Shown here piece by piece: positions 97 to 13,685 of a DNA stretch of 39,866 nt. A program made the position numbers and the translations under genes. Numbering within the stretch: the first letter of the stretch is position 1; each line of letters opens with the position of its first letter. Below the pieces are notes generated by a model. That model ran no database searches and was not told the origin of the DNA. It was given only the letters and a program-made list of their open reading frames with translations. Source of the DNA: Bacillota bacterium (GTDB lineage Bacteria; Bacillota; Dethiobacteria; DTU022); assembly GCA_029552125.1 (NCBI GenBank), contig JAKPEE010000009.1:1-39866 (forward strand), read 5' to 3'.

Positions 97-734
97 TTTT
101 ATTGGACTTCTATGAATTTGCGAAAAATATTATACTTTATCTCGACCTGGAAAAATCAAAACAGATCCTGGAAGAGGCCGGGTATAAAGCCGGCAGCGAC
201 GGCATCAGGGTGAGCGCAGACGGAACACCGCTGGCCTTTACTGTGCTGGTCCGCTCGGAATCACCCGACAGCCAGAAAGCGGCCAGGTTGATCAAAGAGT
301 GGTTTAAAGAGGTCGGTATTGATCTTGAGGTGCAAGTAATTGATGAAGGGACGCTCACCGACAAGATCTATGAAGGTGACTTTGATCTCTTCATCTGGGG
401 CTGGTTTGTGGATGTGGATCCCTCCTCCATCCTGAAAATCATGACTACGGATGAGATCATGTCCTGGAGTGACTGCTTCTACTCCAATCCGGAGTACGAC
501 GAGCTCTTCATACAGCAGCAGTTTACACTCGATCCCGCCGAAAGACAGCAGCTTATCTTTGAACTACAGCGGATAGTGTATGAGGATGCTCCCTACATCA
601 TCCTCTCGTACGATCCCGAGCTGCAGGCCTACCGCACAGACCGCTTTAAGGGTTGGGTCCAGAACCCCGCCGGCGGCCCGGTAGTCTTTACTAATACCAT
701 TGAAACTTACGAGAAACTGGAACCGATCAATTAA
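90..734 (+). pseudogene. C-terminal remnant of an oligopeptide ABC transporter substrate-binding protein
   Basis: From about base 141 the translation is a typical C-terminal part of a family 5 extracellular solute-binding protein (DppA/OppA type). It has the helix with LEKSKQILEEAGY, the DFDLFIWGW stretch, the AERQQLIFELQRIVYEDAPYI region and a C-terminal strand. Full-length proteins are over 500 residues; only about 195 remain, with no signal peptide or lipobox. The first roughly 17 codons (90-140) are AT-rich, do not resemble the family, and the ATG at 90 has no ribosome site. This fits a 5' truncation by the inserted DNA carrying the minus-strand gene at 1-25. The remnant is followed by the matching importer core, so it was presumably the operon's first gene. 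Confidence 0.75.
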
Positions 735-837: not shown

Positions 838-1809
838 TTGAAGATGCGCGGATTTATACTGAACAAGTTGGGGCAAACCGTGCTAATTATTTTTGTCGTG
901 CTGGTCATTAATTTTTTTCTTTTCCGGATCATGCCGGGGAACCCAGTACGGATACTCATCCGCAATCCCAAAATCTCGGCCGAGGCGCTGCAGCGGGTTA
1001 CAGAGCAGTTCGGACTGGATCAGAGCAAGTTTGTCCAGTTTGGTTATTACCTGCGCGATCTGTGCCTGGGCGACCTGGGTCATTCTTTTGTTTACCGCCG
1101 ACCGGTTCTCGATGTGATTATGGAGAAGCTGCCACCGACCCTGTTGCTCACGGGCACGGCAACCGTTCTCTCGATTATCCTGGGTATTCTCCTGGGAGTG
1201 ATCTTTGCCTGGAAAAGGGGCAGTAAACTCGATGTGGCCGGGCTTTCCCTATCGCTGGTACTCTACTCGATGCCCTCTTTCTGGGTCGGCATCTTGATGG
1301 TGATGCTTTTTGCGGTCTACTGGAAGATTTTTCCCCTGTTCGGAATGAGCGTCCCCGGGACCAGCTTTGCCTCCATCTGGGGCCGCCTGGCTGATTTGTT
1401 AAAACACATGTTTTTACCCACGGTTACTTTTACGCTCATTCTCATCGGTGAATATGTTTTGATCATGCGCAACTCGCTCCTCGAAGTGATGAGCGAGGAT
1501 TATATGCTTACGGCTAAAGCCAAGGGCGTCTCCGGCAGGAACCTGCTGCGCCGGCATGCTTTACCTAATGCCATGCTGCCCATGGTCACGCTAATCGCCA
1601 TGAACCTGGGATTTATCGTCGGCGGGGCCATTCAGGTCGAAACCGTATTTTCATGGCCGGGGTTGGGCCGGTTGATGTACACGGCGCTAATGGGGCGGGA
1701 TTACCCTCTTCTGCAAGGGATATTTCTCTTTGTGACCGTATGCGTAGTCGGCGCCAACTTCTGCGCCGATCTCCTCTACCGCTACCTTGACCCCCGGGTC
1801 AAAACCTGA
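838..1809 (+). CDS. Peptide ABC transporter permease, DppB/OppB family
   Basis: This is the first inner-membrane subunit of an oligo/dipeptide importer. The 323-residue protein has an N-terminal membrane helix with the family motif FRIMPGNP, a large extracytoplasmic segment, then the transmembrane domain with the EAA coupling loop (TAKAKGVSGRNLLRRHALPNA) and the family ending DLLYRYLDPRVK. A TTG start is chosen because GGAGG at 823-827 lies 10 bases upstream; ATG at 844 is the alternative and would remove two residues. Its stop overlaps the region just before the next gene, so the two permeases are translationally linked. It would pair with the DppC-like protein and the two ATPases downstream; the binding protein upstream is truncated. 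Confidence 0.93.
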   Translation: MKMRGFILNKLGQTVLIIFVVLVINFFLFRIMPGNPVRILIRNPKISAEALQRVTEQFGLDQSKFVQFGYYLRDLCLGDLGHSFVYRRPVLDVIMEKLPPTLLLTGTATVLSIILGILLGVIFAWKRGSKLDVAGLSLSLVLYSMPSFWVGILMVMLFAVYWKIFPLFGMSVPGTSFASIWGRLADLLKHMFLPTVTFTLILIGEYVLIMRNSLLEVMSEDYMLTAKAKGVSGRNLLRRHALPNAMLPMVTLIAMNLGFIVGGAIQVETVFSWPGLGRLMYTALMGRDYPLLQGIFLFVTVCVVGANFCADLLYRYLDPRVKT

Positions 1810-1823
1810 TGGAGGGGCTGGTT

Positions 1824-2714
1824 ATGCTGCAGATTGTCAACAGAAAAGATCGCTTCATCCTGCTTAAGAAAAACCTGGCTTCATTCTGGGGAATCTACCG
1901 CCGGAACACCATGGGGATTGCCGGGCTGGTCATTCTGGTATGCTTCGCCCTCATGGCGCTGATTGGGCCTTACTTCGTGACCTATACCAGCGCCGCCGAA
2001 GGGATTGAAAAGGTCCTGCAACCGCCGAGCGCCGAGCACTGGCTGGGCACCGACGATCTGGGCAGAGATGTCTTTGCCGGCGTAGTGATCGGCTCCAGGA
2101 TTTCGCTGGTGGTCGGCCTGGCGGCTACAGTGATCTCCATGGTGATCGGCGCGGTGATCGGCATTGTCTCAGGATATTACGGCAAAACCCTGGATGCGCT
2201 CCTGATGCGCTTGACGGATATTTTTCTCGTCATTCCCTGGCTCCCCCTGATGCTGGTGATGGCCGCCCTGCTCGGCCCGAGCCTGGGGAACATCATCCTG
2301 GTGATTGGGATTACCGGCTGGGCAGGGACAGCCCGGATCATCCGCTCGCAAACACTGAGCATCAAGGAGAGACCGTATGTGGAGAGAGCGCGGGCTATCG
2401 GCTCGGGCGATCTGCACATCATGCTCCATCATATTTTACCCAATGTCTTTCCCTTGATTTTCGCCAATACAATCCTGGTCGCGGCGGTAGCCATTCTCTC
2501 CGAGACGACACTGAGCTTCCTGGGGATGGGCGATCCGACCTCGATAAGCTGGGGCATGATGCTCCATTTCGCCTTTGAAATGGGTGCTGTCGCTTTTGGG
2601 GCCTGGTGGTGGCTCATTCCGCCGGGTATCTGCGTAGTTCTGGTCGTGTTGGGATTCACTTTTATCGGGTATGCCCTCGACGAAGTGTTGAACCCGAAAC
2701 TAAGGAGGCGTTAG
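1824..2714 (+). CDS. Peptide ABC transporter permease, DppC/OppC family
   Basis: Second permease of the peptide importer (296 residues). It begins with the short cytoplasmic segment and first helix typical of DppC proteins, followed by HWLGTDDLGRDVF, a near-invariant family motif. It then carries the transmembrane domain with the EAA loop around RARAIGSGDLHIMLHHILPN and ends GYALDEVLNPKLRRR. An in-frame ATG at 1809 overlaps the previous stop, but I prefer ATG 1824 because GGAGGGG (1811-1817) is six bases ahead of it; the longer form would add MEGLV. The next gene starts one base after its stop, so the importer genes form one transcript. Confidence 0.93.
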   Translation: MLQIVNRKDRFILLKKNLASFWGIYRRNTMGIAGLVILVCFALMALIGPYFVTYTSAAEGIEKVLQPPSAEHWLGTDDLGRDVFAGVVIGSRISLVVGLAATVISMVIGAVIGIVSGYYGKTLDALLMRLTDIFLVIPWLPLMLVMAALLGPSLGNIILVIGITGWAGTARIIRSQTLSIKERPYVERARAIGSGDLHIMLHHILPNVFPLIFANTILVAAVAILSETTLSFLGMGDPTSISWGMMLHFAFEMGAVAFGAWWWLIPPGICVVLVVLGFTFIGYALDEVLNPKLRRR

Positions 2715-2715
2715 C

Positions 2716-3684
2716 ATGGCCTTGCTCGAAGTCAACGATTTAACCACCTATTACAAGCTCAAAGAAGGTACGGTCAAGGCCTGCGAGGGAGTTTCGCTGC
2801 ACGTGGATAAAGGTGAAGCATTGGGGCTGGTCGGAGAATCAGCTTCCGGCAAGACGACAGTGGCGCTCTCCTTGATGAAACTTATCCCTGAGAATGCCTC
2901 GATTATCGGAGGCAGCATTAAACTAGACGGCAAAGAGCTCGTTACGGCTACTGAAGAAGAGATGCAGAAAATTCGCTGGAAAGAAATCTCCATTATATTC
3001 CAGGGGGCGATGAACGCTCTGAACCCGGTGCATACCGTGGGCGATCAGATTGCCGAGGTTTTGAAAATTCATGAGAAGCTGACCGATAAGGAGGCCCGGC
3101 AGCGGACCAGGGACCTGTTTGAAAAGGTCGAGATTGACCCGGACCGGGTCCGGGAATATCCCCATGAATTCAGCGGCGGGATGCGGCAGCGGGCCATGAT
3201 TGCCATGGCCATCGCCTGCAATCCAAAGCTAGTTATCGGCGATGAGCCCACCACCGCCCTTGATGTGATGGTGCAGGCGCAGGTATTGCAACTGCTGCAT
3301 CACCTGCGGCAGGAAATCGACATGGGGCTGATCCTGATCACGCACGATCTCTCCGTGGTGGGTGAAACCTGTGACAAGGTGGCGGTGATGTATGCAGGCC
3401 GGATTGTTGAACTGGGGCCGACTGAAACAGTGTTTACCCGGCCGGCTCATCCTTACACGCGGGCGCTGCTGGCCGCCTTCCCCGATATCGAAGGGGAGCG
3501 CACCATGGCTTCATCGATCCCCGGCAATCCGCCGAACCTGCTCTATCCACCGCCGGGATGCCGCTTCCACGAGCGCTGTTCCGAAGTGATACCGGTGTGC
3601 CGCGAGGAACAGCCTCCCACGATTACCATTAACGATCAGCATTACGCGTCGTGCCATCTTCTAAGCAGGCGGGTGAAATCATGA
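2716..3684 (+). CDS. Peptide ABC transporter ATP-binding protein, DppD/OppD family
   Basis: First ATPase of the importer (322 residues). Visible are Walker A GESASGKT (residues 40-47), a Q-loop (IIFQGAMNALNP), the signature FSGGMRQR, Walker B LVIGDEPTTALDV and the switch histidine in LILITHDLSVV. The C-terminus has the oligopeptide-ABC extension with the cysteine-rich segment GCRFHERCSEVIPVC, seen in DppD/OppD and in some members linked to an iron-sulfur cluster. An AAGGAGG ribosome site ends the previous gene. Its stop overlaps the next start as ATGA, the usual coupling for the DppD-DppF pair. All nucleotide-binding motifs are intact, so loss of the binding protein has not been followed by decay here. 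Confidence 0.94.
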   Translation: MALLEVNDLTTYYKLKEGTVKACEGVSLHVDKGEALGLVGESASGKTTVALSLMKLIPENASIIGGSIKLDGKELVTATEEEMQKIRWKEISIIFQGAMNALNPVHTVGDQIAEVLKIHEKLTDKEARQRTRDLFEKVEIDPDRVREYPHEFSGGMRQRAMIAMAIACNPKLVIGDEPTTALDVMVQAQVLQLLHHLRQEIDMGLILITHDLSVVGETCDKVAVMYAGRIVELGPTETVFTRPAHPYTRALLAAFPDIEGERTMASSIPGNPPNLLYPPPGCRFHERCSEVIPVCREEQPPTITINDQHYASCHLLSRRVKS

Positions 3685-4670
3685 CAGCCTTAGTCGACGT
3701 AGATCAACTGGAAGTTCATTTTACCGCCCGCGCCGGGTTGCTCCGCTCTATGTTTGGCAGGGAGACACCGGTGGTCCGGGCTGTAGATGGGGTCAGCTTC
3801 ACCCTCGGCAAGGGGGAGATCTTATGCCTGGCCGGGGAGTCCGGAAGCGGGAAAACCACTACAGGGAAAGCGATCTTAAGGCTGGTGGAGCCCACCGCGG
3901 GAAAAGTGTATTACGCCGGTGAAGATGTCCGGGCGTATAACCGCTCCAAACTGCGCTCCTTTCGCCAGGAAGCCCAGATTATCTTTCAGGATCCGTATGA
4001 ATCGCTGAACCCGCGCCAAACGGTTTTTAACATTGTGGCCGAGCCGCTGGAAGTGAACAATCTTTGCCATAGCCTGGCGGAAAAAGAAGAAAGGGTTGCC
4101 CGGGCGCTGATCGATGCAGGGCTGCACAATCCGCAGGAGCTATTTTTACGTTATCCCCACGAGCTGAGCGGCGGCCAGCGCCAGCGATTGGCCATTGCCG
4201 GGTCGCTGGTGCTCGATCCAAAATTTATCGTGGCCGATGAACCGGTCTCCATGCTCGACCTCTCCATCAGGGCGGGCATCCTCAAGCTGATGGTCGATCT
4301 GCGCGATCAAAAAGGGATCAGTTACCTGTTCATCACCCATGACCTCTCCCTGGCCTGGCTGGTCTCGGATCGCATCGCGATCATGTATCTCGGGAAAATC
4401 GTCGAACTGGGCAGTGCCGATACGGTGATCAAAGATCCGCTGCACCCCTATACCAGGGCGCTGGTTTCCGTAATACCGGCACCGCGGCGCAAAGTGATCA
4501 CGCGCCAATCGCTTTTGAAAGGAGAAACGCCAGACCCGGTAAATGTCCCGCCGGGCTGCCGCTTTCATCCCCGGTGTCCCGTTGCGCTGCCGCGCTGCCG
4601 GGAGGAAGTGCCTCCGTACCGGGAGGTCCGGCCAGGCCATTTCGCCGCCTGCCACCTGATCAACGGCTAA
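3681..4670 (+). CDS. Peptide ABC transporter ATP-binding protein, DppF/OppF family
   Basis: Second ATPase of the importer (330 residues from ATG 3681). It has Walker A GESGSGKTT (residues 52-60), Q-loop IIFQDPYESLNPR, signature LSGGQRQRLAIAG, Walker B FIVADEPVSMLDLS and the switch region LFITHDLSLA. The C-terminal extension has the cysteine-rich pattern GCRFHPRCPVALPRC. An upstream in-frame ATG at 3651 is possible, but ATG 3681 gives the ATGA overlap with the preceding stop and the N-terminus expected for the family (a beta strand beginning LVDVDQLEVHF). It completes a canonical permease-permease-ATPase-ATPase order. The first C25-like gene begins 37 bases downstream. Confidence 0.94.
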   Translation: MTALVDVDQLEVHFTARAGLLRSMFGRETPVVRAVDGVSFTLGKGEILCLAGESGSGKTTTGKAILRLVEPTAGKVYYAGEDVRAYNRSKLRSFRQEAQIIFQDPYESLNPRQTVFNIVAEPLEVNNLCHSLAEKEERVARALIDAGLHNPQELFLRYPHELSGGQRQRLAIAGSLVLDPKFIVADEPVSMLDLSIRAGILKLMVDLRDQKGISYLFITHDLSLAWLVSDRIAIMYLGKIVELGSADTVIKDPLHPYTRALVSVIPAPRRKVITRQSLLKGETPDPVNVPPGCRFHPRCPVALPRCREEVPPYREVRPGHFAACHLING

Positions 4671-4706: not shown

Positions 4707-7700
4707 ATGCAACAACTAACAGTACTGCTTTTATCCCTGGATCGCTGGCTGCACGGTTTAATTTATGCCGCCGCGGCGCTCTCACGGGGTTACGAAATCT
4801 TTTGGGTGAACCCGGACCGGGTCGAAGAAGAGATCGCCGCCCTGGAGCTTCTCAGCCGGAGGCTGCCTCTGTCCCTGGTCGATGCCACCGGCAGCGCCGC
4901 CTTCAGTGAAGCGCTCTGCAGCGCCCCGGGGCGGGAGCGTTTGCCGGTAAACTTCAGCCTGCCGCCTATCAGCGATCCGGAGCTGCTGGCGGAGCGTTTT
5001 GGCCCGGTGCGCGGTATGGTTACCGCCCCGTCAAAAGATCCGTCACGCTGCCTCAAGGCGGCCGTAGTGGCGGTCCGCACCGGTTACTTCTTTTTACCTG
5101 AAGAAATGCTTGACGCGGCATCCCGGCTGCCCGGCGGGCTGCCCCTGGTCCGGCTGGGCTGTGCAAGCAACTGCAGCCATGCGGATGACGCCCGCTTCGG
5201 GCCGATTTTTGATCTCCCCGACGATGCGGCGCTGGCTGCTTTCATGCAACAACTGGAAGCGCCGCCTGATTACCTGCTCTTGTATAACTCCGGTGATATT
5301 CACGAATGTTCTGCTGCATCCCGCTCCATGGGGGATTACCGGGTCAGGGGGTTAAGCCTGCTCGCGCCCCTGTGCGCCTCTTACCGCCGCGTTTTCCCTT
5401 ATGATGTTGGGGCGGCCCGGCCCGACCCGCGGGCCGTCGAAGCAGAATTGAACAGTTTCGTCTCCCGGACCGGGCTGCAACTGAAATACCAGGCCATCCT
5501 GGCTTCACCCGGAGCCATCCCCTTGATCTACGACCGCCGCCTGACCATCGGCAGCCGCAGCGAAGAGGCGGTCCGCGAGATTCATCTGCGCTTAAATGAC
5601 GATCTCTTCTTTGATCTGGCCGAAGGGCGCCTGTTCCAGTCGACTCCGGGCGGCCTCTCGCAGCAGATCATTTCGACCAAGCATTATCACCGCCTTGCCG
5701 GAGCCGGCGCGGGAGAAAAAGAGGTCCTGGTGGTGACCACGCCTCATGTGGAAGGCGGGATCATCTTCACCGCTGACGAGCCCTTAATCGAATGCCAGTT
5801 AAAACCGCTTTTAGAGGAGGCGGGATACGGGGTCAAGATCCTCTCCGGCGAGAAAGCCCATGGGGATGCCATCGCCGCCGCGCTGCCGCAGGCTGATTTC
5901 TTTCTCTACACCGGGCATGGCGGCCCGGAATCGCTGCATACCCACGGGCGTTTTCTGACGCGCCGCGAGCTGCCGCCTCTACCCCCGCTGGTAGCCTTTG
6001 CCTCGGCCTGCTCCACGGTGGCAGTAGATCCGCACTGGTATTCCACCAGCGACGGCCTGGACTGGGACTGCATTCCCGTTTCCGCCCCGGAGGTAATCGG
6101 GCTGGCCATGGTGGAAAAGGGGGCAGTCTGTTACGTGGGCGGCATGACCCTGGAAGACCTGCAATACAGCACCCCGGCTTACGGCATTTTCATGGAGGCG
6201 CTGCTGGTCAAGGGCTGCAGCACCGGCGAAGCCGTGCGCGCAGTGCGCCACTTTGTCAGCCTCTACGCCTCCATGTTGCAGCAGAAATCTCCCGAGAGCT
6301 ATTACTGTTACCAGCAGGGTACGGCCGCCGCCATCCACCAGTTGCTCCTGCTGGGCGATCCAGCCCTGGTCCCCTGCCCGCGGCAGGGGCCCGCAAAGGT
6401 TGCCTTGCCGCAAGAGTGCGAAACGGACACAGCGCGCAGCCGCCTGAAGGTGGCCGTCCCGGAAGAGCGCTGGCGCCGCTCCAGGGGGGCGGTCAACCCG
6501 CTGCCGCCGTCAAAATACTATTACCGCAGTCGAGCCATCGAGGTGCTCTCCCCCTTTGGCGAAGACGTGGTTAGCTGGGGCGACTGCTACCGTATCGCCC
6601 CCGACGCCGAAGGGATTACCGAAACGGCGCTGCTGTCGGGCTTTTTGCACCTGCATCTTGATCTTCCGCCGGGACGCTACCCGCTGCGCCTTGACCTGGT
6701 GGAGGTAAAAGCAGCCGGTGCAGAGTGCCTGCTCTGCGGCCGGGAAACAGAACCTCCGGCTAATTTAAAGGAGGCTTTTCAAGATTTCCGCCTGCCCCAC
6801 CTGCTCCTTCCCCCGGCCCGGATCAATATGGCTGCGGGGTGGGCCTTTGCCGTAGAAGAACGGGGTTTTGATCAGGGCTTGCGGATCCACTGGCTGGCGC
6901 CGGCGCTGGTCATTGACGAAGCGACCCGCACCGCGGTGCGGGCGGCGGAATTTCTGTTTGAGTTAAAGACCGCGGCGGGGCAAAGGGTAAGCGGCCAGGT
7001 TCTCCCCCCCGGCGGCGCAGGCGATTCCGGCAAAGCCTATCTCATCAGCGCCGCCGTAGCCGCGGAGAGCGGGGCGGAGGGCGGCGGTGCGGTCAAAGCG
7101 GAACGGCCTGAAACGCCTCTAAACGTTGTTTTCCAGGGCCTGACCCGCCCGGGAGGATCATTTTCCTTTACCTGCGCCGCCGCCGCCAACCAACTTGCCG
7201 TTGCAGAGCAGTTCCCCCTTTTCGAACTGGTTGGGCCGTACCGGACCTTCCAAAAAGAGCGCCTCCCGCTGCCGCTGCCACAGCCCGAAATCCGGCTCCG
7301 CGCGGCCAGCCAGGGGAAAATTTCCGGGAAAGTGCTCGACGTGAAGAGCGGCGCCGCCCTGCCGGGGGCGCTGATCAGGGTCTGGCGCGGCCTGGAAGAC
7401 CCGGTAAGGGATCCCTTGATCGAAGCGTTCGCCGGTGAGGCGTACAGCGACGCCGCCGGCGCTTTCTCCTTTGATTTGCCCGCGGGGAAATATCTTCTTT
7501 TTGCCGTAGCGCGGCGGGAGGGAGTGGCCTATAAATCTAAATCCGTTACGCTCGAGATTTTTGCCGAAGAAGAGCAGCATCTGCTGCTGCCCCTGGACAT
7601 CGCCGCGGTCGTCAGCGGCCACATCAAATATGGCGCCGCTCCGCCGCTGCTGCATCCAGTGATTGTCACGTTGATGCGCTACCCGGAAAAAGACGGGGGA

Positions 7701-7901
7701 GAGACAGTGGTATCAACGCCGGTGCGGCCCGACGGCTCCTTCTCTTGCCTGGTCGGCTTTCAGGATCGTTTCTATGTCTGGATTGAAGAGGAAGGGTGGC
7801 AGGCGATCAAAGATAACAACCAGGGACGCGGCTACAAAATCCCGCCGGGCGAGGAGCTGCGCCTGGAGTACACTTTGCTTCCGGAGCAGGAACAGCAGTA
7901 G
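4707..7901 (+). CDS. Large C25 (gingipain)-like cysteine peptidase with C-terminal beta-sandwich repeats, copy 1
   Basis: A 1064-residue protein I cannot name. Residues 1 to about 250 look alpha/beta, with segments such as YEIFWVNPDRVEEEI. Residues about 260-555 resemble a peptidase C25/clan CD domain: LASPGAIPLIY, then NDDLFFDLAEGRLF, then FFLYTGHGG (candidate catalytic His404) and FASACSTV (candidate nucleophile Cys435), ending LLGDPALVP. The His-to-Cys spacing of 31 is close to that of gingipains. A middle region contains a CLLC pair. Residues about 870-1060 form two CarboxypepD_reg-like sandwich domains (GKISGKVLDVKSGAALPGA). There is no signal peptide, lipobox or membrane anchor, so a cytoplasmic location is inferred. 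GAGGAGG precedes the ATG. It lies in the peptide-importer operon and has a full-length paralogue next door. Proteolytic activity is inference. Confidence 0.7.
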   Translation: MQQLTVLLLSLDRWLHGLIYAAAALSRGYEIFWVNPDRVEEEIAALELLSRRLPLSLVDATGSAAFSEALCSAPGRERLPVNFSLPPISDPELLAERFGPVRGMVTAPSKDPSRCLKAAVVAVRTGYFFLPEEMLDAASRLPGGLPLVRLGCASNCSHADDARFGPIFDLPDDAALAAFMQQLEAPPDYLLLYNSGDIHECSAASRSMGDYRVRGLSLLAPLCASYRRVFPYDVGAARPDPRAVEAELNSFVSRTGLQLKYQAILASPGAIPLIYDRRLTIGSRSEEAVREIHLRLNDDLFFDLAEGRLFQSTPGGLSQQIISTKHYHRLAGAGAGEKEVLVVTTPHVEGGIIFTADEPLIECQLKPLLEEAGYGVKILSGEKAHGDAIAAALPQADFFLYTGHGGPESLHTHGRFLTRRELPPLPPLVAFASACSTVAVDPHWYSTSDGLDWDCIPVSAPEVIGLAMVEKGAVCYVGGMTLEDLQYSTPAYGIFMEALLVKGCSTGEAVRAVRHFVSLYASMLQQKSPESYYCYQQGTAAAIHQLLLLGDPALVPCPRQGPAKVALPQECETDTARSRLKVAVPEERWRRSRGAVNPLPPSKYYYRSRAIEVLSPFGEDVVSWGDCYRIAPDAEGITETALLSGFLHLHLDLPPGRYPLRLDLVEVKAAGAECLLCGRETEPPANLKEAFQDFRLPHLLLPPARINMAAGWAFAVEERGFDQGLRIHWLAPALVIDEATRTAVRAAEFLFELKTAAGQRVSGQVLPPGGAGDSGKAYLISAAVAAESGAEGGGAVKAERPETPLNVVFQGLTRPGGSFSFTCAAAANQLAVAEQFPLFELVGPYRTFQKERLPLPLPQPEIRLRAASQGKISGKVLDVKSGAALPGALIRVWRGLEDPVRDPLIEAFAGEAYSDAAGAFSFDLPAGKYLLFAVARREGVAYKSKSVTLEIFAEEEQHLLLPLDIAAVVSGHIKYGAAPPLLHPVIVTLMRYPEKDGGETVVSTPVRPDGSFSCLVGFQDRFYVWIEEEGWQAIKDNNQGRGYKIPPGEELRLEYTLLPEQEQQ

Positions 7902-7962
7902 GGGCCCGGGCTTCCGCTTTGCGCCGCTCTCATGGCCATAATCTTTGGAGGTGATTCTGGCA

Positions 7963-10900
7963 GTGACCGCAGTACTCGATCTCCTGTTATTATCCATCAA
8001 TGACTGGCGGCGCAGCCTGTCGCTTGCTTCAGCCGCCCTGGCAAAGCCGGACAGTGAAATCTTCTTTGTTGATCCGAATAAAATCGACAGTGAACTGTTT
8101 GCGTTGAAGCTGCTCGCTGCGAGGCTGCCGCTGCGGGTTACCGACGCCACCGGTGACGACGCCTTCAGCGAAGCGCTGCGGGCAGCCCCGGAGTTAAACT
8201 TGCAACAGGCAGCCGCAAGCATAGAGGCCGACCCGGTGCGGCTGGGCCAGCACTTCGGGCCGCCGCGGGGCCTGGTCTGCGCGCCCGCGGACGATCCGGT
8301 CCGCTGTCTCAAGGGAGCGGTCCTGGCCGTCCGCTTAGGTTACTACTTTATCCCCTGCGGCGGCACGGAGAGCCATTCATCCGGTTGGTGCGAACTTTTT
8401 ACCGCTTCGGGGTTGGCCTTTCATTTGCCGCTAATCTGGCTCGGCCCGGCGGAGCGGCCGCCAGAGCTTTCCGCCGCTGCCGGGCTTCACGATTTTACGG
8501 CCCTGCCCGATGATCCGGCCCTGGCCCGTTTTATGCTCCGGCAAGGCCTGGAAATAGACTATCTGCTTATCTATAACTCCGCTGACCTGGAGCAGGGGAG
8601 CGGCGCGCCGCGCTCTCCCGGCGAGGCCTGGGTGAAAGGGTTGAGCCTGCTGGCGCCGCTCTGCGCCTCTTACCGCCATGTTTTTCCCTATGATGCGGCG
8701 GCGGCCAGGCCGGAGCCGGCGGAAATAGAAAAGGGGTTGAACCGCTTTGTATCCAGGGCCGGCCTTCGCCCGCGCTACATGGCCCTTCTGGCTTCACCGG
8801 GAGCGATCCCTTTGCTCTATGAGCCGCGGCGGACCATCGGCAGCACCAGCGAAGAGATGGCCCGGGAGATCCACCTGCGCCTGAATGACGATATTTTCTT
8901 TGACACGGCCGAAGGCCGCCTTTTCCAGTCAAGCCCCGGGGGGCTCTCCACGCAAATACTGACCACCAAGTATTATCACCGCCTGCCCGGAGCCCGGCAA
9001 GAAACCAGAAAGGTGCTGGTGGCGGCCAGCCCTGCCGTTGAATACAAAATTATCTTTAACTCCGACGATCCGCTGCTGGAAACCCAGTTTACGCCGCTAT
9101 TGGAGCAGTGCGGCTACCGGGTCACCCTCCTTCAGGGCCAGGAGGCCAGGGCGGATCGCATTGCCGCCGCATTAAAGCAGAGCGATTTCTTCCTCTACGC
9201 CGGTCACGGCACCACCGAGGCGCTGATGACTTGCGGCCACTTTCTCACACGCAACGATCTGCCGCTGCTCCCTCCGCTGGTGGCCTATGCTTCGGCCTGC
9301 ACCACCGTGGGGATGGATCCTTACTGGGTTTCGGCCTCCGACGGCCTCGACTGGGAGGGTATACCGGTGCCTTACCGCGACCAATTCGGCCTGGCCATGG
9401 TTGAACAGGGGGCCGTCTGCTATGCCGGGGGCATCACCTCCATGGACCTGCAATTTGCCACCTCCATCTACCCGATCTTCTTTGAAGGTTTGCTGGTAAA
9501 GGGACTGAGCGTGGGCGAGGCCCTGCAGGAAACCCGCCATTTTGTGAGCCTGTATGCCTCCCTCTTGCAGCAGAAAGCTCCCGAACGTTACGGCTGCTAC
9601 AAGTGGTGGATCGCCGCCACCCTGCAGCAGCAGATTTTGCTGGGCGATCCCGCCCTGGTGCCCGTACCGCGGCAGGGTAACGCGGGTACGGCGCTGCCGC
9701 GCCAGGTCGAACCGGAGGGGGACCGCTACCGGGTGACCGTATCCATCCCGGAGAACAGGTGGCGGCACTCGCGCAAACCGGTTCACCCCGGGGAGGCCAC
9801 CCGGTCCTATTACCGGACCCGCCACGTAGAGGTGATTTCGCCCTACGGCGAGGATGTGGTCAGTTGGGGCGATTTCTACCGCCTGGCCCCCGGCGCGGAT
9901 AATATGGCCGAGAACGCGGTGATGGCGAGCTACCTCCATCTTTATCTCGATCTGCCCCTGGCCTTGATGCCCCTGCGGCTGAAGCTGGCCGGGGTAAAAG
10001 AGGCCGGTTATACCTGCCTCCTTTGCGGCCGGGAGGCGGAGCCGCCCCGCGAGATCGCGGCCCTCTTCCAGGACTTCCGCATTCCCTTTTTAATGATGCC
10101 GGCGGTGCGCTTCGATTACCGCGAAGGATGGGCCTTTGCCGTTGAAGAGCGCAGCGACTGCCACCGGGTGCACTGGTTAGTCCCGCTCCTGGTGATCGAC
10201 GAAGCTACCCGCGCCGCGGTAAGGGCCGGCGAGTTAACCTTTGAGCTGCATACCGCGGCGGCGCTCACTTTCAGCGGCAAGGTACAGGCCCCCGGCGCAG
10301 CCACAGGGAGCTCTTTTCTGGTCAGCGCCGGAACCGCGCGCCCATCCGCGGGCGGCAAAAAGGAGGAGACAGGGGAGACAGGGGAGACGCTTGCGGTGGC
10401 GGTACAGGCGGTGACCCGTCCCGGCGGCTCCTTTAAAATCAAGTGTGCCGCTGTGGCCGATGCGGCCAGCGTGGACGCCCAATTTCCCCTCTATGAAATC
10501 CTGGAGCCTTACCGGGCTTTTCAAAAAGAGCTTTGGCCTCTCTCCCTCCCGGAGCCGGTGCTGCTCTCCCCCCGGGAGGCCCTTCCCGGCCAGATCTGCG
10601 GCAAGGTGCTCGACGCAGTCACCGCGGCGCCCCTGCCGGGCGCCCTGGTCAGGGCCTGGCGCGGCGAGACCGATCCCTCAGGCGACCTGATGACTGAAGG
10701 CTTCGCCGGGGAGGCTTCTGCCGCCGCTGACGGCAGTTTTGAGCTGGCCTTGCCCGCGGGTCAATACCAGCTCTACGCGGTGGCCCGGGCAGGGGGAGTG
10801 GACTACAAAAGCCAATGCTTTACCGTGGAGAGCACCGCCGGTGACAGGCTTTACCTGATTTTGCCCCTGGAGGCTGGGGCCCGGGTGTGCGGCCGGGTCT

Positions 10901-11166
10901 ACTTTGCCGGGGCGGCGCCCCTTTACCCGGTCAAGATCAGCCTCAAAAGATATCGCGGCGGCGCTCCCGGGGAGACATTGGCGGCGGTGCATGCCGGCCG
11001 TGACGGCAGTTTCGCCGCCCTGGTGGCGGCGCGGGAGCGCTTCTGCGTGGTGATCGAGGAAGAAGGCTGGAGAACGGTAGAGGATAGCAGTTTGGGCCAC
11101 GGGTTTAAGCTGCAACCCGGGGAAGAGCTGCGCTTAAGCTATACCCTGGAGCCGCGGGAAGGGTAG
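7963..11166 (+). CDS. Large C25 (gingipain)-like cysteine peptidase with C-terminal beta-sandwich repeats, copy 2
   Basis: A paralogue of the preceding gene along its entire 1067 residues, with well over half of the residues identical by eye in the catalytic block. Candidate catalytic residues are His415 (FFLYAGHGT) and Cys446 (YASACTTV), again 31 apart. The shared LCASYR, EGRLFQS, LASPGAIPL, GLDW and LLGDPALVP stretches are retained, as is the CLLC pair. Two C-terminal sandwich domains begin at GQICGKVLDAVTAAPLPGA. GTG 7963 is chosen as start because GGAGGTG (7947-7953) is nine bases upstream and the N-termini of the two copies then align; the longer TTG start at 7945 would sit on the ribosome site itself. 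No secretion signal is present. A short acidic insertion encoded by a 9-bp tandem repeat separates it from copy 1 near residues 800-810. Function beyond the fold is unknown. Confidence 0.7.
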   Translation: MTAVLDLLLLSINDWRRSLSLASAALAKPDSEIFFVDPNKIDSELFALKLLAARLPLRVTDATGDDAFSEALRAAPELNLQQAAASIEADPVRLGQHFGPPRGLVCAPADDPVRCLKGAVLAVRLGYYFIPCGGTESHSSGWCELFTASGLAFHLPLIWLGPAERPPELSAAAGLHDFTALPDDPALARFMLRQGLEIDYLLIYNSADLEQGSGAPRSPGEAWVKGLSLLAPLCASYRHVFPYDAAAARPEPAEIEKGLNRFVSRAGLRPRYMALLASPGAIPLLYEPRRTIGSTSEEMAREIHLRLNDDIFFDTAEGRLFQSSPGGLSTQILTTKYYHRLPGARQETRKVLVAASPAVEYKIIFNSDDPLLETQFTPLLEQCGYRVTLLQGQEARADRIAAALKQSDFFLYAGHGTTEALMTCGHFLTRNDLPLLPPLVAYASACTTVGMDPYWVSASDGLDWEGIPVPYRDQFGLAMVEQGAVCYAGGITSMDLQFATSIYPIFFEGLLVKGLSVGEALQETRHFVSLYASLLQQKAPERYGCYKWWIAATLQQQILLGDPALVPVPRQGNAGTALPRQVEPEGDRYRVTVSIPENRWRHSRKPVHPGEATRSYYRTRHVEVISPYGEDVVSWGDFYRLAPGADNMAENAVMASYLHLYLDLPLALMPLRLKLAGVKEAGYTCLLCGREAEPPREIAALFQDFRIPFLMMPAVRFDYREGWAFAVEERSDCHRVHWLVPLLVIDEATRAAVRAGELTFELHTAAALTFSGKVQAPGAATGSSFLVSAGTARPSAGGKKEETGETGETLAVAVQAVTRPGGSFKIKCAAVADAASVDAQFPLYEILEPYRAFQKELWPLSLPEPVLLSPREALPGQICGKVLDAVTAAPLPGALVRAWRGETDPSGDLMTEGFAGEASAAADGSFELALPAGQYQLYAVARAGGVDYKSQCFTVESTAGDRLYLILPLEAGARVCGRVYFAGAAPLYPVKISLKRYRGGAPGETLAAVHAGRDGSFAALVAARERFCVVIEEEGWRTVEDSSLGHGFKLQPGEELRLSYTLEPREG
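10363..10389 (+). repeat. Three tandem 9-bp repeats inside C25-like copy 2
   Basis: Three units of G(A/G)GGAGACA-type sequence encode EETGETGET in a linker of the second C25-like protein. Copy 1 has no equivalent. The reading frame is preserved, so unit number could change without breaking the gene. Confidence 0.7.
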
Positions 11167-11281: not shown

Positions 11282-12478
11282 ATGAGCCTTGGATTGGAGC
11301 AAATCAACCGGATCATCGCTGCCGAAAAAGAAGCCCTGATCGGCCTGGGCCGCGAGATCCACAGCCATCCCGAACTGGGTGACCAGGAATTCTATGCTGT
11401 CCGGATTATTTGTGATTACCTTGCGGCCAAAGGTTTTGCGGTGGAGAAAGAAATCGCCGGGCAGAAGACCGCTTTTCTAGCCACCCGGCATAGCGGCACC
11501 GGCCGGGAGGGGTGCCGGATTGCCTTCTGCGCCGAATATGACGCTCTCCCGGAAATCGGGCATGCTTGCGGCCATAACCTCATTGCCACCGCCTCCGTGG
11601 CCGCAGCCGTGGCCCTAAGCGGGACCACGCCCGGGGTCCCCTTCACGGTTTTGGTGATCGGCACCCCCAACGAAGAGGGCCGCGGGGGGAAAATTGACCT
11701 GATCAAAGCCGGTGTTTTCGATCAGGTGGACCTGGCCATGATGTTCCATCCCGACCATCTAACCCGTGTTGATTATATTAGCCAGGCCTGCCGCACCTTC
11801 ACCTTTACCTTTCACGGTCAAAACGCCCATGCCGCCGGCAACCCGTGGGACGGCCGCAATGCGCTTGACGGCGTCATCCTTACCTTTAACGGGATTAATG
11901 CCCTGCGGCAGCACCTGTGCGATGATGTGCGCATTCACGGGATCATCACCGACGGCGGGCAGGCGAGCAATGTCATACCCCATCGCGCCTGCACGGAGTT
12001 CTGTATCCGCTCCATAGACAACCGCTACCTTGAGGAGGTAGTGGAAAAGGCCCTCAACTGTGCCCGCGGCGCCGCGCTGGCTACGGGCACCGAGCTGACC
12101 ATTGCCGAAACCGAATACCCCTATGAGGCCATGTTAACCAACCGGGTCATGGGCGAACTGTTCTGGGAGAGCCTGCATGAAGCCAGCGATTCGGCCTGGA
12201 CCGAGCAAGAGGTGGGTTTGGGTTCGACTGATATGGGGAATGTCAGCCAGGTGGTGCCTTCCATTCAGCCACTGGTAGCCATTACCGATGAAAATGTGGA
12301 GGTGCATACCGCTGAATTTGCCCGGCTCTGCGACACCCCGCAGGCTTACGAGACGGCGCTGACGGTGGGAAAAGCGATGGCCCTGACCGGGTTCAAGGTC
12401 CTGCAAGATCCGGCCTTACTGAACAGAATCAAGGAAGAATTTGCGGCGAGAGCCGGCTCAATCCGGCAAAAGGGGTGA
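11282..12478 (+). CDS. M20 family amidohydrolase (M20D / ACY1L2-AbgB type)
   Basis: A 398-residue zinc/manganese hydrolase of the type that cleaves N-acyl or peptide-like amides. The metal-site pattern of M20D enzymes is visible: EYDALPEIGHACGHN with His94, Cys96 and His98, the glutamate pair E131-E132 in TPNEEGRGG, and His156 in MFHPD. The inserted dimerisation domain follows (FTFHGQNAHAAGNPWDGRNALD, GGQASNVIPHRA). AAGGAGG precedes ATG 11282. It follows the C25-like genes after a 115-base gap and its stop almost touches the next M20 gene. Substrate is not readable; aminoacylase, aminobenzoyl-glutamate-type and dipeptide hydrolases share this fold. Context suggests a final step in use of imported peptides or acyl-amino acids. 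Confidence 0.88.
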   Translation: MSLGLEQINRIIAAEKEALIGLGREIHSHPELGDQEFYAVRIICDYLAAKGFAVEKEIAGQKTAFLATRHSGTGREGCRIAFCAEYDALPEIGHACGHNLIATASVAAAVALSGTTPGVPFTVLVIGTPNEEGRGGKIDLIKAGVFDQVDLAMMFHPDHLTRVDYISQACRTFTFTFHGQNAHAAGNPWDGRNALDGVILTFNGINALRQHLCDDVRIHGIITDGGQASNVIPHRACTEFCIRSIDNRYLEEVVEKALNCARGAALATGTELTIAETEYPYEAMLTNRVMGELFWESLHEASDSAWTEQEVGLGSTDMGNVSQVVPSIQPLVAITDENVEVHTAEFARLCDTPQAYETALTVGKAMALTGFKVLQDPALLNRIKEEFAARAGSIRQKG

Positions 12479-12485
12479 TTGGGCC

Positions 12486-13685
12486 ATGCATGGCCTGTGT
12501 CAACGGATTAAAAAGGTGCTCACGGCAGCGGAGATCGCCTCCCTGGCCGGTGACCTGGTGGCTCTCCCCAGCTACCCTGGAATCGCGGAGCAGGAAACCG
12601 CGGTGGCCGCTTATATTGACCGCTTCTTTAAGCGGGAAGGGATTCCTTCAGAGCTGATCCCGGTCAAAGAGGGCCGCTGCAATGTCCTGGCCAGGCTGCC
12701 CGGCAGCGGCGGCGGCTGCACCCTTTTGCTGAACAGCCATCTCGATACGGTCCCCCCGTATGATCTGGGCGAACCTTGCCGTCCGCGCCAAAAAGAGGGG
12801 AAGCTTTACGGGCGGGGTGCGGTCGATACCAAGGGGATTCTGGCCTGTATGATCTCTGCCGTAGCGGCGCTGCGCCGGGCCGGCATCGCCCTAAAAGGAG
12901 ACCTCATTTTTGCGGGAGTAATCGACGAGGAAGGAGGCAGCGCCGGCAGCATTGATCTGGTCAAGAAAGGGCTGCAGGCGGACGGCGCGGTAATCGGCGA
13001 GCCCACCGGGTTTGATCTTTGCCTCGGGCAAAGGGGCCTGGAATGGCTCGAGTTCTGCTTTAAGGGCGCGGACACGCACGGGGGCAACCAGGCCGGTGCG
13101 CCCAATGCCATCCGGATGGCGGGGTTGTTTATCGCCAGGTGCGAACAGGAACTGGTGCCCGTGCTTAAACAGAGGAGGCACCCCCTTCTCGGGAGCGCCT
13201 CCATGAATTACGGCTTTATCCACGGCGGTTCCCAGCCGAGCACCGTGGCCGGGGAATGCCTCCTGCAGGTCGACCGGCGCTGGCTTCCGGATGAAGATTA
13301 TGCCGCCGTGCTGAATGAGTACGAAGCGCTGCTGCGTTCGCTGGCCCGCGAAGAGCCTCAGTTCAAGGGATCGATGCGGCTCGTGGAGGCCGGCCGGATG
13401 GAGGATGGTTATCTGCACACCGGGTCGCTCCTTGAGCCGGGCCATCCGCTGGCGGTTGCCGTTGCGGAGAGCGCCGCTGCGGTTTTTGGCGCCGTGCCGC
13501 CGCAGCGGGCTTTCACCGCCTGGAGCGACGCCGGTATCTTATCCACCTACGGCGGGATCCCTTCCTTAATCTTCGGCCCCGGCGACCTGGCCGTGGCCCA
13601 TACGGCCAGCGAGTATATCGGGATAGAAGATCTCTTACCGGCGGCCCTGGTCTATGCCCTCACGGCAGCCAGCTTCTGCAGCTAA
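12486..13685 (+). CDS. M20 family peptidase/deacylase (ArgE/DapE/CPG2 type)
   Basis: A 399-residue M20A-like hydrolase with all metal ligands visible: SHLDTVPP (His85, Asp87), GAVDTKG (Asp114), DEEGGSAGS (Glu148 as general base and Glu149), and VIGEPTG. Near the C-terminus is AHTASEYIGI with the last histidine ligand. ATG 12486 is preferred over the in-frame ATG 12441 because AGGGGTGA (12471-12478) lies seven bases upstream and the longer start would run inside the previous gene. Members of this group act as deacetylases, dipeptidases or carboxypeptidases, and the sequence alone does not choose between them. It is the last gene of the peptide-use operon and converges on the ATP synthase operon with a 41-base gap in which I see no clear terminator. 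Confidence 0.88.
   Translation: MHGLCQRIKKVLTAAEIASLAGDLVALPSYPGIAEQETAVAAYIDRFFKREGIPSELIPVKEGRCNVLARLPGSGGGCTLLLNSHLDTVPPYDLGEPCRPRQKEGKLYGRGAVDTKGILACMISAVAALRRAGIALKGDLIFAGVIDEEGGSAGSIDLVKKGLQADGAVIGEPTGFDLCLGQRGLEWLEFCFKGADTHGGNQAGAPNAIRMAGLFIARCEQELVPVLKQRRHPLLGSASMNYGFIHGGSQPSTVAGECLLQVDRRWLPDEDYAAVLNEYEALLRSLAREEPQFKGSMRLVEAGRMEDGYLHTGSLLEPGHPLAVAVAESAAAVFGAVPPQRAFTAWSDAGILSTYGGIPSLIFGPGDLAVAHTASEYIGIEDLLPAALVYALTAASFCS

Follow-up and report, generated by a model that had tools for sequence, protein, structure and literature searches.

The stretch of DNA analysed here (the window) comprises the 39,866 nt of contig JAKPEE010000009.1 of a Bacillota bacterium (GCA_029552125.1), and carries at positions 4707-11166 a tandem pair of genes for C25-like proteins (Table 1), which are the only C25-like copies in an assembly of 2.56 Mb, 159 contigs and 87% completeness. 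Ahead of the pair lies an importer of the Opp/Dpp type, recognised by Pfam as a set of a family-5 solute-binding protein (SBP), two permeases and two ATPases. A preliminary sequence-only reading had described this importer as complete, which is the case in relatives of the window genome but not in the window itself, where the SBP is reduced to its C-terminal ~197 residues. This remnant shows 86% identity (tblastn) to the complete SBP of a relative, G023, and positions 1-140 of the window, without homology to the SBP gene of the relatives, are probably an assembly edge artefact. Behind the pair there are two M20-family genes, as had been noticed before: the first one has counterparts in relatives (56-59% identity), whereas the second has none in their operons and holds this position in the window only. 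The remaining part of the window (14140-39866) is housekeeping-like, with ATP synthase subunits, an importer of the branched-chain amino acid type, a class V aminotransferase, RuvB and queuosine synthesis. A plasmid search returned no match, and promoter and terminator scans gave nothing beyond chance level.

Table 1. Genes at the locus (window positions) and regions of the first C25-like protein (residues)
Feature	Position	Strand	Evidence and remarks
SBP family-5 gene, 3' part	141-734	+	residues ~352-548 of 548; PF00496; contig edge
OppB/DppB-type permease	838-1809	+	PF00528, PF19300; 91% identical to G023 orthologue
OppC/DppC-type permease	1809-2714	+	PF00528, PF12911
OppD-type ATPase	2716-3684	+	PF00005, PF08352
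OppF-type ATPase	3651-4670	+	PF00005, PF08352
C25-like copy 1	4707-7901	+	1064 aa; PF01364 32.8 bits; alignments; models
C25-like copy 2	7963-11166	+	1067 aa from GTG; listed ORF starts at TTG 7945
M20-family amidohydrolase	11282-12478	+	TIGR01891 202.9 bits, above cut-off; synteny with relatives
Second M20-family hydrolase (ArgE/DapE type)	12441-13685	+	TIGR01910 219.1 bits, above cut-off
Copy 1, alpha/beta N-terminal domain	residues 1-180		pLDDT mostly 65-85
Copy 1, C25 N-subdomain	residues ~181-335		
Copy 1, caspase-like subdomain	residues ~336-560		Glu349, Asp357, His404, Cys435
Copy 1, beta-rich region	residues 575-760		Cys674-x-x-Cys677
Copy 1, variable linker	residues 761-870		
Copy 1, tandem transthyretin/CNA-B-like domains	residues 871-1064		

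Both C25-like ORFs are intact, and their products are 54% identical over the full length. A strong Shine-Dalgarno sequence (GAGGAGG) precedes the ATG of copy 1, and another one, GGAGGTGA at 7947-7954, is found 8 nt before the GTG at 7963 of copy 2. As the listed TTG start of this second copy overlaps GGAGGTGA, the GTG is the likelier start, from which the N terminus of the protein resembles the start of its homologues. The His/Cys dyad of copy 1 is formed by His404 in a TGHGG motif and Cys435 in ASACST, and that of copy 2 by His415 and Cys446 (numbered from the GTG), a spacing of 31 residues in each of the paralogues that agrees with the first description of the pair. Values of dN/dS of ~0.24 and ~0.22 for the two copies indicate purifying selection on both of them. 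The duplication is older than the split of the window genome from G023, a member of the same family with a tandem pair in the same arrangement (73% identical), and a somewhat differing specificity of the two enzymes is a plausible reason why both copies were kept.

The assignment of these proteins to the C25 peptidases comes from the Pfam profile and from alignments. PF01364 (Peptidase_C25) matches copy 1 with 32.8 bits (cut-off 23, E 5.7e-8) and, over the same span, copy 2 with a sub-cut-off score of 20.0 bits; among the ten C25-like members the profile is detected in all and exceeds the curated cut-off in eight. Neither a single protein nor a profile of the family retrieved anything relevant from the PDB sequences, and the C25 match is a remote one. 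HH alignment to canonical C25 proteins yielded a short local match only, and the full alignment was obtained by MAFFT with two canonical proteins of the same order (169 bits to PF01364) as reference. In this alignment, the FGHG and ASACDT motifs of the canonical proteins are matched with TGHG and ASACST, the Asp residue is matched as well, and IHKFVLFGDPSL corresponds to IHQxLLLGDPAL; a strand of subdomain A, a GR motif and the IHxxxLxGDP(A/S)L end are also shared landmarks. Altogether, profile and dyad alignment bear out the proposed clan CD domain of C25 type. His404, Cys435 and Asp357 do not vary among the ten proteins, whose identity to copy 1 falls as low as 42%. Either Glu or Asp occupies position 349 in the nine fully printed rows of the alignment and in the distant locus described below (G143). 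The caspase-like subdomain is the best conserved part, with a mean pairwise identity of 62% versus 36% for the N-terminal domain. The canonical C25 proteins of loci L052 and L053 (G043 and G055) have ~950-1100 residues, with additional domains N-terminal to the C25 domain. Pfam also gave weak hits to separase (C50) and, in one member, to DMFA2_C (E 0.12), which we ascribe to a similar fold or to chance.

A view of the putative active site suggests a preference for basic residues. In RgpB, the Arg-binding residue of the S1 pocket, Asp163, is found in the first helix, 48 residues ahead of the catalytic His (PMC4357240, where this His is given as 221, while its flanking glycines, 210 and 212, point to 211). 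Asp357 precedes His404 by 47 residues and is aligned at the S1 Asp site of gingipains, and it is on this spacing and alignment that a preference for Arg/Lys is proposed, so that the C25-like enzymes would probably cut after these residues.

Models of the protein were built with AF2 as two halves from four sequences. The catalytic region was modelled with low confidence (pLDDT ~46), and Foldseek found caspase-11 as a weak match only; a glutamate racemase-like match of the N-terminal half (probability ~0.5) was taken as generic alpha/beta similarity. The pair Cys674-x-x-Cys677 of copy 1 (P0001; window 6726-6737) is invariant in the ten C25-like proteins and may represent a metal or redox site. 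For residues ~871-1064 a tandem beta-sandwich is predicted, with a best Foldseek E of 4e-9 to Gram-positive surface proteins. The CarboxypepD_reg-like domains initially recognised here are thus backed by the model as beta-sandwiches, although by Pfam both the CarboxypepD_reg and the SpaA hits in this region, which agree with the predicted fold, are weak and sub-threshold.

C-terminal beta-sandwich domains of such type are usually extracellular. On the other hand, neither a signal peptide nor a membrane segment was found in any of the ten C25-like members, with a maximum 19-residue hydropathy over the first 60 residues of 0.9-1.4, whereas the SBP lipoprotein of the operon, which has a clear signal, reaches 2.6. 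This absence, already pointed out from the letters, suggests that the C25-like proteins stay in the cytosol, as they appear to do. Export by an unrecognised route, after which the proteins would degrade substrates outside the cell and feed the peptides to the importer, would be in line with the secretion of the well-studied C25 enzymes (gingipains) and with the likeness of the C-terminal domains to surface proteins, but we regard it as very unlikely in view of the uniform lack of targeting segments next to an SBP that has one, and of an N terminus that opens straight with the alpha/beta domain.

The neighbourhood of the C25-like gene was compared among relatives. Within the home family (f1), a single copy is encoded in five genomes (G003, G006, G010, G014 and G021) and a fragment in G022, on a contig of 3.1 kb. 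With the distant G143 described below, a full-length gene is found in eight genomes, and just two of them, the window genome and G023, have the tandem pair. In every locus with both genes assembled, the C25-like gene lies directly behind OppF, in most cases with a gap of 14-36 nt. The order in relatives is corrinoid protein, MttB-like methyltransferase, SBP, OppB-C-D-F and C25-like protein: the corrinoid protein and MttB genes share the operon and stand immediately ahead of the SBP in G023 and the five single-copy genomes, and every locus assembled on its upstream side has MttB-family genes before the importer. The genes downstream are mostly amidases (C45, M20), and in four relatives comprise a C45 acyltransferase/hydrolase, an M20 amidohydrolase, an MBL-fold protein and, mostly, an FGGY kinase. 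The C45 gene (L014:12148-13173 and orthologues; autoproteolytic type, NF040521, above cut-off), located between the C25-like and M20 genes in these four relatives, is missing from the window, which carries the second M20 gene in place of it. The MBL gene lies directly 3' of the C25-like gene in G010 and G022, with no amidase gene directly after the C25-like gene of G010, and the contig of G023 ends inside the second C25-like gene. An agmatinase-family gene (TIGR01230, above cut-off) lies just 5' of the corrinoid protein gene in G023 (L012:923-1819). Other species of the same genera (G001, G012 and G024) lack the C25-like gene, and so the operon seems to be gained or lost as one unit.

Moreover, a sample of 399 genomes of the phylum outside the home family yielded a full-length relative in the distant Bacillota family f54 (G143) and, in G283, a fragment that follows OppBCDF where the contig ends; wider searches around these two added no further genomes. 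The G143 locus reads three MttB genes, SBP, OppBCDF, C25-like protein, a fourth MttB-like gene overlapping the 3' end of the C25-like gene, and a gene without NCBIfam hit at E 1e-15 that from its sequence we take to be an M19-like dipeptidase. Upstream of the MttB genes there is an ectoine hydrolase DoeA-like gene (L063:261-1436; TIGR02993, 468 bits, below cut-off). Together with the loci of the home family, this one extends the link between C25-like protein, importer and MttB to two families at least. Of the operon proposed at first, importer, C25-like protein and amidohydrolase recur elsewhere, but the second M20 gene does not, and most genomes with a full-length gene lack the tandem arrangement.

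The partnership with MttB was also apparent at the level of genomes. Orthologues of the operon MttB (at least 70% identity) are present in exactly six of the 43 genomes of the home family, and all six are positive for the C25-like gene; in the two C25-like positive genomes without orthologue the contigs are cut upstream. This co-occurrence has a Fisher p of 4.6e-6, uncorrected for relatedness. The assembly of the window genome is one of those without an MttB orthologue (best identity, 33%); its contig begins inside the SBP, and the missing MttB and corrinoid protein genes presumably lie beyond this break. Eleven paralogues of the MttB superfamily, 25-33% identical to the operon MttB, are encoded elsewhere in the same genome (G000; contigs C150, C3, C51, C134, C156, C101 and C23), two of them with a TAG in the matched frame that could stand for pyrrolysine or simply be the terminal stop. 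The corrinoid protein of the operon scores just above the cut-off of TIGR02370, and its MttB is of the non-pyrrolysine type (PF06253), with no internal stop. The substrate of many MttB-superfamily proteins is not known, and that of the operon MttB is not predictable from similarity because its nearest PDB match, the glycine betaine methyltransferase, reaches only about 180 bits.

These data modify the original proposal of an intracellular peptide-degrading or peptide-triggered module. A putatively cytoplasmic C25 protein coupled to an importer remains in place, but a plain peptide module is an incomplete description because upstream the conserved genes encode a corrinoid protein and an MttB-family methyltransferase. 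Our main reading, to which we give a probability of roughly one half, is that these cytosolic clan CD peptidases perform the endohydrolytic step in an operon for the catabolism of an N-methyl compound held in amide or peptide linkage. The substrate and order of steps that we infer would be as follows: the SBP lipoprotein would capture an amide-linked methylated compound, OppBCDF would bring it into the cell, and the C25-like enzyme would cleave it by an endoproteolytic or amidolytic cut, probably after Arg/Lys. The downstream amidases (M20, with C45 or M19 in relatives) might then free the methylated amine, whose methyl group would be handed by the MttB-family methyltransferase to the corrinoid protein of the operon.

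An SBP family-5 importer and amidases leave the substrate unfixed, and the strongest rival is a general use of peptides inside the cell, where the C25-like proteins would trim oligopeptides for amino acid fermentation with MttB genes as neighbours of convenience. The Opp-type importer and the M20, M19 and C45 hydrolases of the same operon would suit such a role, all the more as the N-methylated substrate is one that we infer. However, the distribution of the MttB orthologue in the home family follows exactly that of the C25-like gene, the distant G143 has MttB genes both before and after its C25-like gene, and C45 enzymes and the TIGR01891 subfamily of M20 are amidases rather than typical peptidases, by which we consider this option rather doubtful. 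Still less probable is a regulatory or processing protease that senses an imported ligand and cuts one particular protein of the cell, be it the importer, a regulator or the methyltransferase, in the manner of separase or caspases. The large multidomain build, with several conserved non-catalytic domains, speaks for it, as does the site specificity of clan CD endopeptidases (PMC12445089), but no target or cleavage site was identified and the neighbouring genes are metabolic. A peptide-triggered defence or cell-death module, which the caspase-like domain and the weak similarity to separase could evoke, is hardly credible next to the constant company of importer, methyltransferase and amidases; the proteins did not match any known defence family in PADLOC, and an anti-phage role was rejected.

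Returning to the catabolic operon for N-methyl compounds, the association of C25-like proteins with an importer and genes of B12-dependent demethylation suggests an undescribed route for the import and breakdown of methylated amide-linked compounds. It is possible, and proposed here only tentatively, that anaerobic Bacillota import peptides or conjugates of methylated or quaternary amines and use their methyl groups through MttB and corrinoid proteins in a dedicated pathway, with a cytosolic, hitherto unrecognised family of gingipain fold as the first cutter. If true, an intracellular C25 branch and a peptide-bound class of substrates for MttB-type methylotrophy would be added, and a cytosolic multidomain branch in a metabolic operon would imply a wider use of the C25 fold. 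The MttB/corrinoid link points to methylated substrates that need prior release from amide bonds, and a conserved operon that names importer and hydrolases makes the question of the MttB substrate testable.

What is known of C25 enzymes comes mostly from gingipains, virulence proteases that Bacteroidota secrete. The domain described here belongs to this known peptidase family by its profile match and motifs, whereas its location, architecture and operon were not found in the open-licence literature, in which no paper joined C25 with MttB or with intracellular proteins of Firmicutes. Like gingipains, the C25-like proteins have the domain match, the His-Gly and Cys motifs, an Asp at the RgpB S1 position, the GDP(A/S)L end and beta-sandwich domain(s) after the catalytic domain. 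Unlike them, they have an extra alpha/beta N-terminal domain, a His-Cys spacing of 31 instead of the about 33 of RgpB, and no Pfam match to positions of the PF01364 model before about 100; they are encoded in a metabolic operon and lack the signal peptide and secretion features of a secreted zymogen, a trait that is typical of known C25 members but external to the Pfam definition. Regarding the importer, the SBP5, two permeases and two ATPases keep the usual order of Opp/Dpp operons, from which the locus differs by the C25-like gene fixed right behind OppF and the methyltransferase genes before the SBP. Finally, demethylation systems of the MttB superfamily with corrinoid proteins include those for glycine betaine (MtgB), gamma-butyrobetaine (MtyB), choline and carnitine. 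The operon resembles them in the corrinoid protein (TIGR02370) and non-pyrrolysine MttB (PF06253) that adjoin an importer, and departs from them in the Opp/Dpp type of this importer, in the built-in C25-like, C45, M20 or M19 hydrolases, and in an MttB whose similarity to the solved glycine betaine methyltransferase is distant (180 bits).
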